From the NCBI GenBank assembly GCA_030431525.1, contig JAUIJC010000033.1:1-48062 (forward strand): a stretch of 48,062 bases of DNA. Direction: 5' to 3'. This document shows positions 2 through 48,062 of this stretch, in pieces; within the stretch, counting starts at the first letter, position 1, and each line of letters starts with the position of its first letter. This stretch comes from Bacteroidia bacterium (lineage in GTDB: Bacteria; Bacteroidota; Bacteroidia; Cytophagales; JAAEPT01). The position numbers and the translations under genes were made by a program. The notes beneath the pieces are model-generated. The model was not told the origin of the DNA. It did not search any database and saw nothing but the letters and a program-made list of their open reading frames with translations.

Positions 2-183
2 GGTGTAGGCTTTACACCTGGTACTAATACCTATATCTCTACAGATTCTGTAGCAGGTAATGTGGATACTACTTTGGCTACCGGTCTTTCAGCGCAAACT
101 ACCTACGAATTCTACATTCGTGATAGTTGTGGAGCAAATGGATTTAGTCCTTGGATTGGACCATTTACCTTTACAACTGCTTG
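2..183 (+). CDS. Partial secreted fibronectin type III-like protein (no start)
   Basis: The reading frame is open from the window edge and encodes a segment with the end of an FN3-like beta-sandwich (TTYEFYIRDSCG, then GPFTFTTAC). This is typical of large multi-domain surface proteins of Bacteroidota. The frame stays open to the stop at 290-292, but after about position 183 the DNA is the antisense of a hemW gene, so the last ~36 residues are probably not native. There is no start and no genuine C-terminus. Parent function unknown. Confidence 0.5.
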
Positions 184-453
184 TAATGTGATTTCAGCAC
201 CATTGGAAATCGAGAAGTTGTCGCGAATCTCATCTAATATTCCTCCCAACTCTTCTTTGGTTAACAAAGAAGGTGTTCCACCACCAAAATAAATGGTCTC
301 CAGCTCATTACCGCTTAAAAAATCTTTCCGCAAGCTGAGCTCCTTGCCAATGGCTTCCACCATTTTTCCCTGCCCTTTCAGATTCGTAGTGAAATGAAAG
401 TCACAGTAATGACAAGCCTGTCTGCAAAAAGGAATATGGAGATAAAGGCCCAT
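184..453 (-). pseudogene. hemW: HemW-like radical SAM protein, 5' fragment only
   Basis: The first ~90 residues match HemW (the coproporphyrinogen III oxidase-like heme chaperone). They hold the radical-SAM cluster motif CRQACHYCDF (CxxxCxxC, residues 10-17), then ETIYFGGGTPSLL and the start of the SAM-binding strand ending AEITL. HemW proteins are usually about 375-400 residues. Here the similarity stops near position 184, where the FN3 coding segment of the opposite strand begins, and the frame continues only ~23 unrelated residues. The ATG at 453 and the N-terminus MGLYLHIPFC are normal for the family. This is a truncated gene or a chimeric assembly. Confidence 0.75.
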
Positions 454-38906: not shown

Positions 38907-39467
38907 TTAACCAACTTTTTCCACTTGCGTGTAACTCAGCTCCATTGGTTGGTTGCGACCGAAAATGGTCACTACAATCTTGAGCTTCTTCTTGTCGTCG
39001 TCAATCTCTTGGATCGTACCTGTAAACCCACTAAAACCTTCTTCAATCACCTTCACTTCCTCCCCTACATAGAAGACCTGATCAGAAGTCACTTCCTCCT
39101 CAACAACACCTTCGACCTTGCCAAGAATACGATTCACTTCAGACTGCCTAAGTGGTTGAGGCTTAGTATCTTCACCGTCTTTCACACCTAAGAAGCCTAG
39201 CACGCCAGGAACACTCTTAATCAAGTGAACGACTTCAGCATCGGAAAGGTCACAGGATACCAAAACGTAACCTGGGAAGAAGTTTCGCTCACGAACTTTC
39301 TTTTTCCCATTTCGGACCTCGTAGTACTTCTCCATAGGGATCAGTACTTCAGCGACCTTTTCCTCCATTTTGTGTCGAACCAGCTCGGTCTCAAGATAGG
39401 CCTTCACCTTTTTCTCTTGACCAGCAACTGCCCGCACAACGTACCATTGCAAATCAACCTTGGCCAT
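38907..39467 (-). CDS. nusG: Transcription antitermination factor NusG
   Basis: 186 residues from the ATG at 39467 ([21 protein letters not shown]). NGN domain with [12 protein letters not shown], and a C-terminal KOW domain with [24 protein letters not shown]. It binds RNA polymerase and links it to Rho or the ribosome. The open frame to 39536 overlaps secE and is not used. secE ends one base before its start. Confidence 0.97.
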
Positions 39468-39468
39468 C

Positions 39469-39657
39469 TTAGAATGAATAAACGGTTCCCAACACCTCTT
39501 CCAACAGCTTATCCATGCCGAAAACCACTCCAGCAAAAACCACGGAAGCCACTAGCACCAAAACCGTACTCTTGCGCAACTCTTCAAACGTTGGCCAAGT
39601 CACCTTATAGACGATTTCGCCAAAAGATTCCCTGACGTAGGATACAAGCTTGTCCAT
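39469..39657 (-). CDS. secE: Preprotein translocase subunit SecE
   Basis: 62 residues from the ATG at 39657 (MDKLVSYVRESFGEIVYKVTW), the typical single-membrane-helix SecE. The conserved amphipathic part VYKVTWPTFEELRKST precedes the helix VLVLVASVVFAGVVFGM. It stabilises SecY. The start at 39687 lies against the upstream tRNA and is rejected. Confidence 0.95.
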   Translation of the reverse strand: MDKLVSYVRESFGEIVYKVTWPTFEELRKSTVLVLVASVVFAGVVFGMDKLLEEVLGTVYSF

Positions 39658-39684: not shown

Positions 39685-39757
39685 CACAGATGGGAAGAAT
39701 CGAACTCCCGCAAACAGATTTTAACCCCTGCCGCTCTTCCAATTAAGCTACACCTAT
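39685..39757 (-). tRNA. tRNA-Trp-like gene lacking a CCA anticodon
   Basis: 73 bases fold as a type I tRNA: acceptor ATAGGTG/CATCTGT (two wobbles) with discriminator G, D arm GCTT/GAGC, and T arm GGGAG/CTTCC with loop TTCGATT. It sits between tuf and secE, where bacteria usually carry tRNA-Trp, and G73 fits Trp. However, the anticodon stem GCAGG/TCTGT encloses an 8-base loop GGTTAAAA instead of a 7-base loop with CCA. Read from the 3' side the anticodon would be TAA, which makes no sense for this tRNA type. It is a mutated or miscalled tRNA-Trp. Confidence 0.7.
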
Positions 39758-39811
39758 GTATACTCTCGCCTAAAAAGCGAATGCAAAATTAGAAACAAAT
39801 AGACTTAAAAA

Positions 39812-39848
39812 CAAATGCGCCCTCGAAAAGAATTCAAGGACGCATTTG
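39812..39848 (-). terminator. Hairpin after tuf
   Basis: CAAATGCG pairs with CGCATTTG (39812-39819 and 39841-39848), with a partial inner stem. It lies 23 bases past the tuf stop and before the tRNA-Trp-like gene, so it may be a partial terminator. Confidence 0.5.
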
Positions 39849-39870: not shown

Positions 39871-41038
39871 TTACTCGACGATTTCAGTCACCTGACCAGA
39901 ACCTACAGTACGACCACCCTCACGGATAGCGAAACGTAGACCTTTTTCCATCGCGATTGGGTTGATCAACTCAACAGAGATAGAAACGTTATCACCAGGC
40001 ATTACCATTTCAACGCCGTCTGGCAAAGAAATCTCACCAGTTACGTCCGTGGTACGGAAGTAGAACTGTGGACGATATTTCTTGAAGAATGGAGTGTGAC
40101 GACCACCCTCTTCTTTAGAGAGTACGTAAACCTCAGCCTTGAACTTAGAGTGTGGCTTAACAGAACCAGGCTTACAGATGATCATACCGCGCTTGATATC
40201 AGATTTCTCGATACCACGCAACAAAAGACCAACGTTGTCACCAGCTTCACCTCTATCCAAGATCTTACGGAACATCTCAACACCAGTGATGGTAGACTTA
40301 AGACCTTCAGCACCCATACCGATGATATCAACAGGATCACCAGAGTTGATTACACCTCTCTCGATTCTACCAGTAGCAACAGTACCACGACCAGTAATAG
40401 AGAATACGTCCTCAACAGGCATCAAGAAGTCAAGGTCAACAAGACGCTCAGGCTCTGGAATGTAGTTATCAACTGCATCCATAAGCTCGTCAATCTTAGC
40501 AACCCACTCAGGCTCACCATTCAAACCACCCAAAGCAGAACCTTGGATTACAGGAATATCATCACCTGGGAAGTCATACTGAGAAAGAAGATCACGAACC
40601 TCCATCTCAACAAGCTCCAACAACTCAGGGTCATCAACAAGGTCAACCTTGTTCATGAACACAACAAGAGCAGGAACACCTACCTGACGAGCAAGAAGGA
40701 TGTGCTCACGAGTCTGAGGCATTGGTCCATCAGTAGCAGCAACTACGATGATAGCACCGTCCATCTGAGCAGCACCAGTAACCATGTTCTTAACATAGTC
40801 AGCGTGACCTGGACAGTCAACGTGTGCGTAGTGACGCTTCTCAGTTTCGTACTCTACGTGAGAAGAGTTAATTGTAATACCACGCTCTTGCTCTTCAGGA
40901 GCGTTGTCGATCGCAGAGAAGTCACGCTTTTCAGCGAGTCCTTTATCAGCGAGTACTTTAGAGATGGCCGTGGTCAACGTGACCGATGGTACCAATGTTC
41001 ACGTGCGGCTTGGAACGATTAAAGGTTTCCTTAGCCAT
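39871..41038 (-). pseudogene. tuf: Elongation factor Tu with 20-base deletion and frameshift
   Basis: The ATG at 41038 starts [24 protein letters not shown], then the frame breaks. After CAC GGC the next bases belong to the codons for TTAI that normally follow the P-loop, in another frame. Adding back 20 bases restores [17 protein letters not shown] and a 395-residue EF-Tu. From position ~40980 to 39871 the rest is intact ([21 protein letters not shown], and C-terminal [15 protein letters not shown]). The lost stretch lies between two copies of GTTGACCACGGC expected at the two edges. As written, no functional EF-Tu can be made from this copy. Either the deletion is an assembly collapse or another tuf exists. 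Confidence 0.9.
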
Positions 41039-41080
41039 CGTTGAAAAATCCTTTAAGGATTAGAATTTAAATACAACTAG

Positions 41081-41152
41081 AGCCAACGATGGGATTTGAA
41101 CCCACGACCTCTTCCTTACCAAGGAAACGCTCTACCCCTGAGCTACGTCGGC
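41081..41152 (-). tRNA. tRNA-Thr (GGT)
   Basis: 72 bases. Acceptor GCCGACG/CGTTGGC, D arm GCTC/GAGC, anticodon loop TTGGTAA with anticodon GGT, T arm GTGGG/CCCAT with TTCAAAT. The CCA end is not encoded. It lies upstream of tuf on the same strand, after tRNA-Tyr. Confidence 0.95.
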
Positions 41153-41164
41153 AATAAACAGAAT

Positions 41165-41184
41165 TAACGAAAGAACTTTCGTTA
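41165..41184. other. Short perfect hairpin between tRNA-Tyr and tRNA-Thr
   Basis: TAACGAAAG-AA-CTTTCGTTA, immediately next to the 3' end of tRNA-Tyr. It may help processing of the tRNA precursor. Many genomes have tRNA-Gly between these two genes; none is seen here. Confidence 0.5.
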
Positions 41185-41185
41185 G

Positions 41186-41268
41186 TGGGGAGAGCAGGAT
41201 TCGAACCTGCGAAGTCGTAAGACAACGGAGTTACAGTCCGTCCCATTTGGCCGCTCTGGAATCTCCCC
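41186..41268 (-). tRNA. tRNA-Tyr (GTA)
   Basis: 83 bases, a type II tRNA with a long variable arm. Acceptor GGGGAGA/TCTCCCC with discriminator A, anticodon stem ACGGA/TCCGT with loop CTGTAAC, anticodon GTA. It is the first gene of the tRNA-tuf-secE transcript, about 30 bases after a strong promoter. Confidence 0.95.
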
Positions 41269-46387: not shown

Positions 46388-47998
46388 TCATGCGCCAAGC
46401 TGATATTGGATGTAAGGTTTGTTTTGTACTTCTGAAAGGAAGTTTTTAAGCCCCAACCTAGCCCACTTGTCCAAATTGTGAGCGATGGCCAACAAGCCAA
46501 TTTCAATTGAGACCTTTTTCAATCCTCTGAGGAAAAATCTTCTGAAGCCCTTGTTGCCCTTCAAATTTCCAAAGACTGCCTCGATGTCCGCCGGACGTTT
46601 TTTTCTCCTTCTAACTCCCTCCTCGCTTAGGAGTTCTTCACGGGCAACTTGCTTTAGCCTGTTTAGATTGTGATTCACTTCGATTACCCTGTTGCCTTGT
46701 TGGTTATGGCAGGCGGCCCTGATAGGGCAACCCTGACAGTTTTTGGCCTTATAGCGGGAGATTGTCTGTTTGAAACCTGTTGAGGTTTCTCTCTGGTAGT
46801 CGCCTAAATGCCTCATCTCTTGTCCCATCGGACAGTAAAGGCAGTTTTTATCGGCGTTGAAATGAAGCCTGCCCGAGTCCTTAAGGTTGTCTTTCCTGGA
46901 GGATGCCTGTTTCTGCTCCTTGTGGAAATAATTGTATTTGACAAAGGCTTGGATGCCGTCCTTCTCCATTCTTGTGTAGTTCTCCTCGGAACCATAGCCC
47001 GCATCGGCCGTGATTGTTTTGGGAAAGATGCCGTGGGCCTCCCGGAAGCTGTCCAGGTGATGGGGAAGTGTAGTGGCGTCAGTCGTTTTCTGGTAGAGGT
47101 CGTAGTTGGTGATAAACTGGTCCTCGGAGGTCATCTGCACATTATAGCCAGGTTTGAGCTGGCCGTTTTGCATGTGGTCGTCCTTCATGCGCATGAAGGT
47201 GGCGTCGTTGTCAGTCTTCGAGAAGCTGTTGCGTTCACCAAGGATCTCCTCTTTCTGTTGGTACTCCTCCAGCTTGTCAGGCCAGTTTTTCTTGGCGTAG
47301 GTGATTTTTTGCCTGACTTTCTTGTCCGTGGTGTCCTTGTTCTGTGCCTTGAGGTTTTTGTCGATTTTGTCAATCGTCTTGCGGACCTCCTCGGGGTCGA
47401 GCGTGGAGAAATCGGCCGGACGATCCTGGGCCATCTCCTCCTTACAGACGGATTCGGCGTAGTCCCATAGCTCTTCGAGTTGCTCGTAGATCCGCTCCTT
47501 GTTGCGCTTTACTGCCTTGCCCCAAACGAAGGTGTAGCGGTTGGCGTTCGCCTCGATCTTCGTACCGTCGACATAGGCGTCCTTCAGGCCCACATGCCCC
47601 GATTCGACAAGAAGGACGACCACTTCGGAAAAGATCGTCTTGACCAGGTCCTTGAGTCGCTCGCCACGGAAACGGTTGATGGTGTTGTGGTCGGGGGTGC
47701 TCATGCCAGCCAACCACATGAAATGGATGTTTTCTTGAAGGGCCGCTTCAATCTTACGACTTGAATAGATGTTCCTCAAATAGGCGTAAACCAAGACCTT
47801 GAGCATCATACGGGGATGGAAACTCGACGTACCACCTCCCTTGTAGCGTTCTAAAATCGGAGTGAGGTTGATTTGGTCGATTACTCGGTTCACCACTCGA
47901 ACAGGGTGGTGTTCGTCAATCAGATCGGACAGGTTTGGTGGAAACAATACTGTTTGTCCTGGTTCATATTGCTTAAAAGTCTTCTTGGAATGGGCCAT
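46388..47998 (-). CDS. IS1182-family DDE transposase
   Basis: 536 residues from the ATG at 47998 (MAHSKKTFKQYEPGQ). The longer frame to 48043 runs into the IS end hairpin and is rejected. It has the N-terminal DUF772-type domain (HPVRVVNRVIDQ, FHPRMMLKVLVYAYLRN, STPDHNTINRFRG), then the DDE core: D in AYVDGTKIEAN, D in TADAGYGSEENY, E in IEAVFGNLKGNKG. A Cys-rich stretch CLYCPMGQEM...CQGCPIRAAC lies between the second D and the E, usual for IS1182. It looks intact, so the element may be active. Confidence 0.93.
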   Translation of the reverse strand: MAHSKKTFKQYEPGQTVLFPPNLSDLIDEHHPVRVVNRVIDQINLTPILERYKGGGTSSFHPRMMLKVLVYAYLRNIYSSRKIEAALQENIHFMWLAGMSTPDHNTINRFRGERLKDLVKTIFSEVVVLLVESGHVGLKDAYVDGTKIEANANRYTFVWGKAVKRNKERIYEQLEELWDYAESVCKEEMAQDRPADFSTLDPEEVRKTIDKIDKNLKAQNKDTTDKKVRQKITYAKKNWPDKLEEYQQKEEILGERNSFSKTDNDATFMRMKDDHMQNGQLKPGYNVQMTSEDQFITNYDLYQKTTDATTLPHHLDSFREAHGIFPKTITADAGYGSEENYTRMEKDGIQAFVKYNYFHKEQKQASSRKDNLKDSGRLHFNADKNCLYCPMGQEMRHLGDYQRETSTGFKQTISRYKAKNCQGCPIRAACHNQQGNRVIEVNHNLNRLKQVAREELLSEEGVRRRKKRPADIEAVFGNLKGNKGFRRFFLRGLKKVSIEIGLLAIAHNLDKWARLGLKNFLSEVQNKPYIQYQLGA

Positions 47999-48027
47999 CC
48001 TCAAAGCTAACAATCTGATAAAAATGA

Positions 48028-48062
48028 AAAGAGGCTGACTCAACTTTTGAGACAGCCTCTTT
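48028..48062. repeat. Right IS end with internal hairpin
   Basis: AAAGAGGCTGACTCA pairs with TTGAGACAGCCTCTT within the end, and the distal half is the terminal inverted repeat matching 46289-46305. The window stops within it. Confidence 0.8.

Follow-up and report, generated by a model that had tools for sequence, protein, structure and literature searches.

The Bacteroidia genome analysed here carries, directly before secE and nusG, a tRNA-Trp-derived gene that lacks the CCA anticodon (39685–39757, minus strand; positions are those of the window, the whole stretch of 48,062 nucleotides that was analysed). That the resident tRNA-Trp was released from decoding because UGG is read by a second tRNA-Trp on another contig is well supported, and we lean, tentatively, towards the view that the element may persist as a non-decoding, tRNA-shaped leader of secE-nusG whose fold is kept by selection.

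Read directly from the sequence, the gene is 73 bases long with tuf on one side and secE on the other, and has acceptor, D, anticodon and T stems of 7, 4, 5 and 5 pairs and a G discriminator; its position between tuf and secE, type I fold and discriminator are thus as an earlier model-made reading of the letters (hereafter the sequence-only reading) had described them. All 21 stem pairs are standard or G-U, six being G-U. The Rfam tRNA model (RF00005) matches exactly 39685–39757 on the minus strand, with one base inserted in each of the D and anticodon loops, and the score of 41.9 bits (gathering score, 29) together with the cloverleaf places the gene in the Rfam tRNA family, at a lower score than the two other tRNAs of the window (68.7 and 54.3). 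ARAGORN, run on the window, called only those two, a tRNA-Thr and a tRNA-Tyr, and left the gene at 39685–39757 uncalled. The predicted fold is a cloverleaf whose anticodon loop has 8 bases (−17.0 kcal/mol plain, −17.4 kcal/mol when one extra pair forms), though the energy is nothing unusual against shuffled sequences (z −0.46; 62 of 200 shuffles fold as well). What identifies the gene as a tRNA is the score against the model, together with its location and its resemblance to the tRNA-Trp of relatives, rather than free energy.

The anticodon arm consists of the 8-base loop GGTTAAAA (39719–39726, minus strand) flanked by the stems GCAGG and TCTGT, instead of the CCA anticodon in a 7-base loop by which a tRNA-Trp is recognized. 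Both the loop length and the missing CCA had been reported in the sequence-only reading and can be read directly from the letters, in agreement with the Rfam alignment and the fold. The two possible anticodons that it had named correspond to two registers, TAA with T33 when counting from the 3' side and TTA with G33 when counting from the 5' side. The alternative that it had itself raised, a standard anticodon in a 7-base loop, fared poorly when folded: a register with the loop GUUAAAA (DNA GTTAAAA) leaves three stem pairs, with an arm at +1.4 vs −3.9 kcal/mol, and for the whole molecule gives −11.7 vs −17.0 kcal/mol, 5.3 kcal/mol worse and the same penalty as for the arm.

The decoding of UGG is provided for elsewhere in the genome (4.24 Mb, 75 contigs, 99.97% complete), as the sequence-only reading had argued it must be. 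An ordinary tRNA-Trp(CCA) is present on another contig (G000:C12:118884-118956), and an exact pattern search for the CCA arm found this one place in the genome. The tRNA-model matches in the genome number at least 56, of which 53 lie over the cut-off (150 of 244 first-look candidates scored), and ARAGORN, applied to the window and 50 fetched loci, returned 32 anticodon types with a single tRNA-Trp(CCA). The genome-wide count of tRNA-Trp genes that had been proposed as a check therefore yields one with CCA, outside the secE place; this gene is solitary and has a promoter-like TTG-N19-TACTTTTG of its own 40 bases upstream. As the genome also has a single trpS, the gene for TrpRS, UGG is covered.

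Across the order, to judge from kinship Cytophagales, nusG was matched in 92 of 98 genomes, this one included, and the six genomes without a match are excluded from the 91 relatives compared. A CCA tRNA-Trp lies just upstream of secE in all 91, ARAGORN calling it in 90 (28 + 60 + 2), while in the last the contig is cut at its end and the CCA pattern and secE are visible there. Of 88 relatives, 86 have the anticodon loop CTCCAAA and the other two CTCCAAC, with CCA in 88 of 88, and the spacing from tRNA to secE ranges from 10 to 316 bases (median, 25; ≤113 in 83 of 89), compared to 27 in the window. In two genomes from which tuf has moved away (G391, the same as G011, and G393, the same as G096, at identical coordinates), the tuf loci (L122 and L125) have no tRNA-Trp beside them, and the tRNA-Trp still precedes nusG/secE. 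The tRNA-Trp thus stays with nusG where tuf lies elsewhere, indicating that its partner is secE rather than tuf.

Of at least 80 tuf-linked loci, 76 were scanned (L118–L193), of which 68 have a CCA tRNA-Trp and eight have none (L122, L124, L125, L127, L152, L154, L188 and L189). The genomes of L122, L124, L125, L127 and L154 were searched and all five contain the CCA tRNA-Trp pattern. At L154 (3294–3553), from a Prolixibacteraceae MAG, the tuf-secE gap holds a loose tRNA-like remnant that has kept its T-loop and gives no Rfam match at gathering, and the sole CCA tRNA-Trp pattern match in that genome is a normal tRNA-Trp elsewhere. This is probably an independent release at the place before secE, and release of the tRNA-Trp there has probably happened at least twice. 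A search for the same element by DNA in 59 relatives gave, outside its own genome, nothing beyond short or weak matches, and among 390 genomes of the order there was the own match and one weak match in G003, a tRNA-Phe. The only genome of the same family that was compared (G001; 84% complete, with too few tRNAs to be informative) has no nusG match at 1e-20 and no CCA tRNA-Trp pattern. Additional tRNA-Trp copies occur in other members of the order: four genomes of family f18 (G033, G062, G076 and G089) have two CCA tRNA-Trp each, one before nusG and one elsewhere, with identical matched arms that indicate duplication without divergence, and one genome has three consecutive matches to the CCA tRNA-Trp-like pattern, spaced 471 bases apart (G046:C52:21372-22342), besides the copy before nusG.

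Downstream of the element, secE (39469–39657, minus strand) starts after 27 bases and is followed by nusG (38907–39467, minus strand), the next gene in the presumed operon. Upstream by 57 bases lies a promoter-like TTG-N20-TAATTTTG (39784–39814, minus strand) of the −33/−7 kind, the Bacteroidota type of consensus; the motif occurs upstream of the tRNA-Trp in 68 of 88 relatives vs 0.7 in shuffles and is kept in the window. A scan for E. coli-type sigma-70 promoters found none. A terminator-like stem-loop after tuf (39812–39848, minus strand; 16 pairs, then TTTTT) would keep tuf apart from the tRNA-secE transcript; chance alone would give 0.6 such sites in the region. The tRNA would then form the first part of the secE-nusG transcript. 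The relevant passage of an earlier account likewise assigns tRNA-Trp to the secE operon, after the operon structure of Bacilli (PMC8046335).

The neighbouring tuf (39871–41038, minus strand) is the only close tuf match in the assembly, and the damage to it that the sequence-only reading had noticed is real in the assembly: compared to relatives, ~20 bases of the GTP-binding loop (GKTTLT region) are missing near 40967 and the gene is frameshifted. Such damage to an essential gene suggests a fault in the sequence or the assembly, unless an intact copy exists unassembled. The tRNA-Thr and tRNA-Tyr lie before tuf at 41080–41268. Many relatives have a tRNA-Gly(TCC) between these two; it is missing here, and this genome has a tRNA-Gly(TCC) on another contig beside tRNA-Phe. 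By eye, the contig starts within a cut hemW-like frame (112–453, minus strand) and ends next to a long transposase-like frame (46388–48043, minus strand), as if repeats had broken the assembly at both ends.

With respect to origin, the best alignment of the gene among the tRNAs of its own genome and the fetched loci is to the tRNA-Trp of relatives (score 82), with scores of 66 and 60 for the tRNA-Trp and tRNA-Phe of its own genome. Since it lies before secE and is closest in sequence to tRNA-Trp, the gene is the former resident tRNA-Trp, and from its letters and place it is best read as having been released once its function had passed to another copy. It shares with the tRNA-Trp(CCA) of the tRNA-Trp-secE-nusG unit the place, type I body, G discriminator, A1-U72, promoter-like motif and secE spacing, and differs in having no CCA, an 8-base loop and a variable region of four bases, where relatives of the same length have five. 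Turning the inner segment (between pairs 30 and 40) into that of the usual tRNA-Trp takes six edits, and a single read error therefore cannot hide a CCA loop, although the GGGG run may contain one G too many. Gene conversion was considered as the source of the loop and rejected: the tRNA-Leu(UAA) of the genome shares TTAAAATCT, yet a search of the genome with the 16-base arm (≤2 mismatches) returned the gene itself and three two-mismatch matches, compared to two for the reversed control, and identified no donor at this level of likeness, though a less similar donor may exist.

Despite the extent of the change in the gene, the stems have remained intact. Compared to six reference tRNA-Trp sequences, which stand in for the true ancestor, 12–18 stem bases differ and 3–7 pairs are changed on both sides, with none broken; when the same changes were placed randomly on like stem bases, all 21 pairs survived in 18–806 of 100,000 trials (0.02–0.8% across the six references). 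Ten letters of the window gene outside the anticodon loop, eight of them in stems, are each seen in <5% of the 51 relatives that share its length class, and all eight rare stem letters, which probably arose late, sit in intact pairs. For random stem changes, the survival of all pairs is 0.3–1.3% with eight changes and 1–3% with six, depending on the mutation model. Taken from the letters, this points to the fold having been under selection after the anticodon was given up, though part of the stem changes could be older than the release, or a single event could have altered the loop, and either would weaken the argument for selection. The broken stems of a decayed pseudogene are absent (0 of 21 pairs), in contrast to the L154 remnant. 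The relic suggested by the sequence-only reading holds in the sense of a former resident tRNA-Trp, by place and likeness.

The explanation that we favour would begin with the ancestral tRNA-Trp of the tRNA-Trp-secE-nusG unit being freed once a second copy read UGG, after which the anticodon loop could change while the cloverleaf would have stayed under selection. Transcription from its own promoter would make the element the 5' part of the secE-nusG mRNA, from which RNase P at its 5' end and RNase Z or E at its 3' end would cut it out, and this cutting would set the 5' end of the secE-nusG message. Most likely, in our view, it is still transcribed and cut by the nucleases that mature tRNAs, with the fold kept for that purpose. 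It is directly established that a second copy exists, that the place is conserved, that CCA is missing, that the stem pairs are retained and that the spacing to secE is short; the order of events, the transcription, the cutting and the fold as the target of selection are inferred. Counting against a leader, the plain cloverleaf is weaker than the tRNA-Trp folds used for comparison (−17.0 vs −23.8 and −26.0 kcal/mol) and folds no better than shuffles, the G-U pairs and the kind of base changes resemble decay, a processing role alone need not preserve the anticodon stem, and the predicted selection on the fold is drawn from one genome, with no matching element in relatives to follow on the tree.

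The main rival of the leader reading, and a substantial possibility in its own right, is a recently retired pseudo-tRNA, in which a second copy took over, the anticodon was lost and the resident gene is drifting, its stems intact because release is too recent or because most of the stem changes predate it. Most of the changes are indeed C-to-T or G-to-A, as in decay; six pairs are G-U, the model score is below those of the other window tRNAs, and the loose remnant of L154 sits at the equivalent place in a genome with a normal tRNA-Trp elsewhere. Drift fits poorly with a loop and closing pair changed by as many as six edits while none of the 21 pairs is broken. An error in the sequence or assembly of an ordinary tRNA-Trp is the least likely explanation, and the suspicion in the sequence-only reading that a local sequence problem lies behind the missing CCA is not supported. 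Local errors do occur, given the ~20 bases absent from tuf, and one G of the GGGG run could be surplus, but an error would have to account for six edits in the inner loop segment alone and for pair-matched changes across the acceptor and anticodon stems, a normal tRNA-Trp exists elsewhere in the genome, and the damage to tuf is a separate matter.

It is improbable that the gene is a new decoding tRNA, charged by a route other than TrpRS acting through CCA and reading UUA (TAA register), UAA (TTA register) or a +1 frameshift. The body is complete, and in E. coli the variants of tRNA-Trp that carry a CUA or UUA anticodon are classical suppressors. The extra anticodon-loop base that marks a +1-frameshifting tRNA is present as well, such a base being typical of +1-frameshifting suppressor tRNAs in the description given in PMC7803779. 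UAA is the stop in 14 of the 22 window genes (UGA in the other eight), including eight of the nine from tuf to rpoC (gene names by eye from the list of open reading frames), and with UAA this common its efficient reading would be harmful. UUA accounts for 5 of the 385 Leu codons of 11 window genes and the genome has an ordinary tRNA-Leu(UAA), making additional reading of UUA unneeded; moreover, LeuRS requires features other than G73 and a type I body. Read in the TTA register, the gene would have G instead of U at base 33, and nothing in the window calls for a frameshifting tRNA. Of the frameshift-type or stop-reading role floated in the sequence-only reading, the 8-base loop stands and the role itself is unlikely. 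There is very little likelihood that a natural tRNA-Trp derivative with an 8-base loop still takes part in translation, reading UAA/UUA or shifting frame under some condition; if true, duplication of a tRNA-Trp would have given rise to a suppressor or frameshifting tRNA encoded in the chromosome.

The closest published case found, as far as its description in PMC3399842 extends, comes from Bacillus cereus: the pseudo-tRNA tRNA-Other carries a Trp anticodon, becomes charged only poorly in vitro and is absent from polysomes. Like the window gene, it is an extra tRNA-like gene beside a working tRNA-Trp; it has been proposed to act outside translation (PMC3399842), as the window gene may. At the window locus, a tRNA-like body and a promoter-like motif are present and transcription is predicted. 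According to that description, tRNA-Other keeps its Trp anticodon and flanks a genomic island, whereas the window gene, known from its sequence, has no CCA and precedes secE. The SufB2-type +1-frameshifting suppressors share the extra anticodon-loop base but, as portrayed in PMC7803779, arose by selection as mutants of charged decoding tRNAs whose loops are otherwise normal, whereas here the anticodon itself is gone. Among the titles and abstract starts listed by searches of the open-licence PMC literature, nothing was recognised as a non-CCA tRNA-Trp derivative before secE.

Everywhere else in the order surveyed, a working tRNA-Trp occupies the place before secE, and this genome therefore represents a natural separation of two roles that such a gene may have, the decoding of UGG and the provision of a folded front end for the secE-nusG message. 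If the fold is indeed kept without decoding, tRNA genes within mRNA operons can be held in place by a processing role alone.
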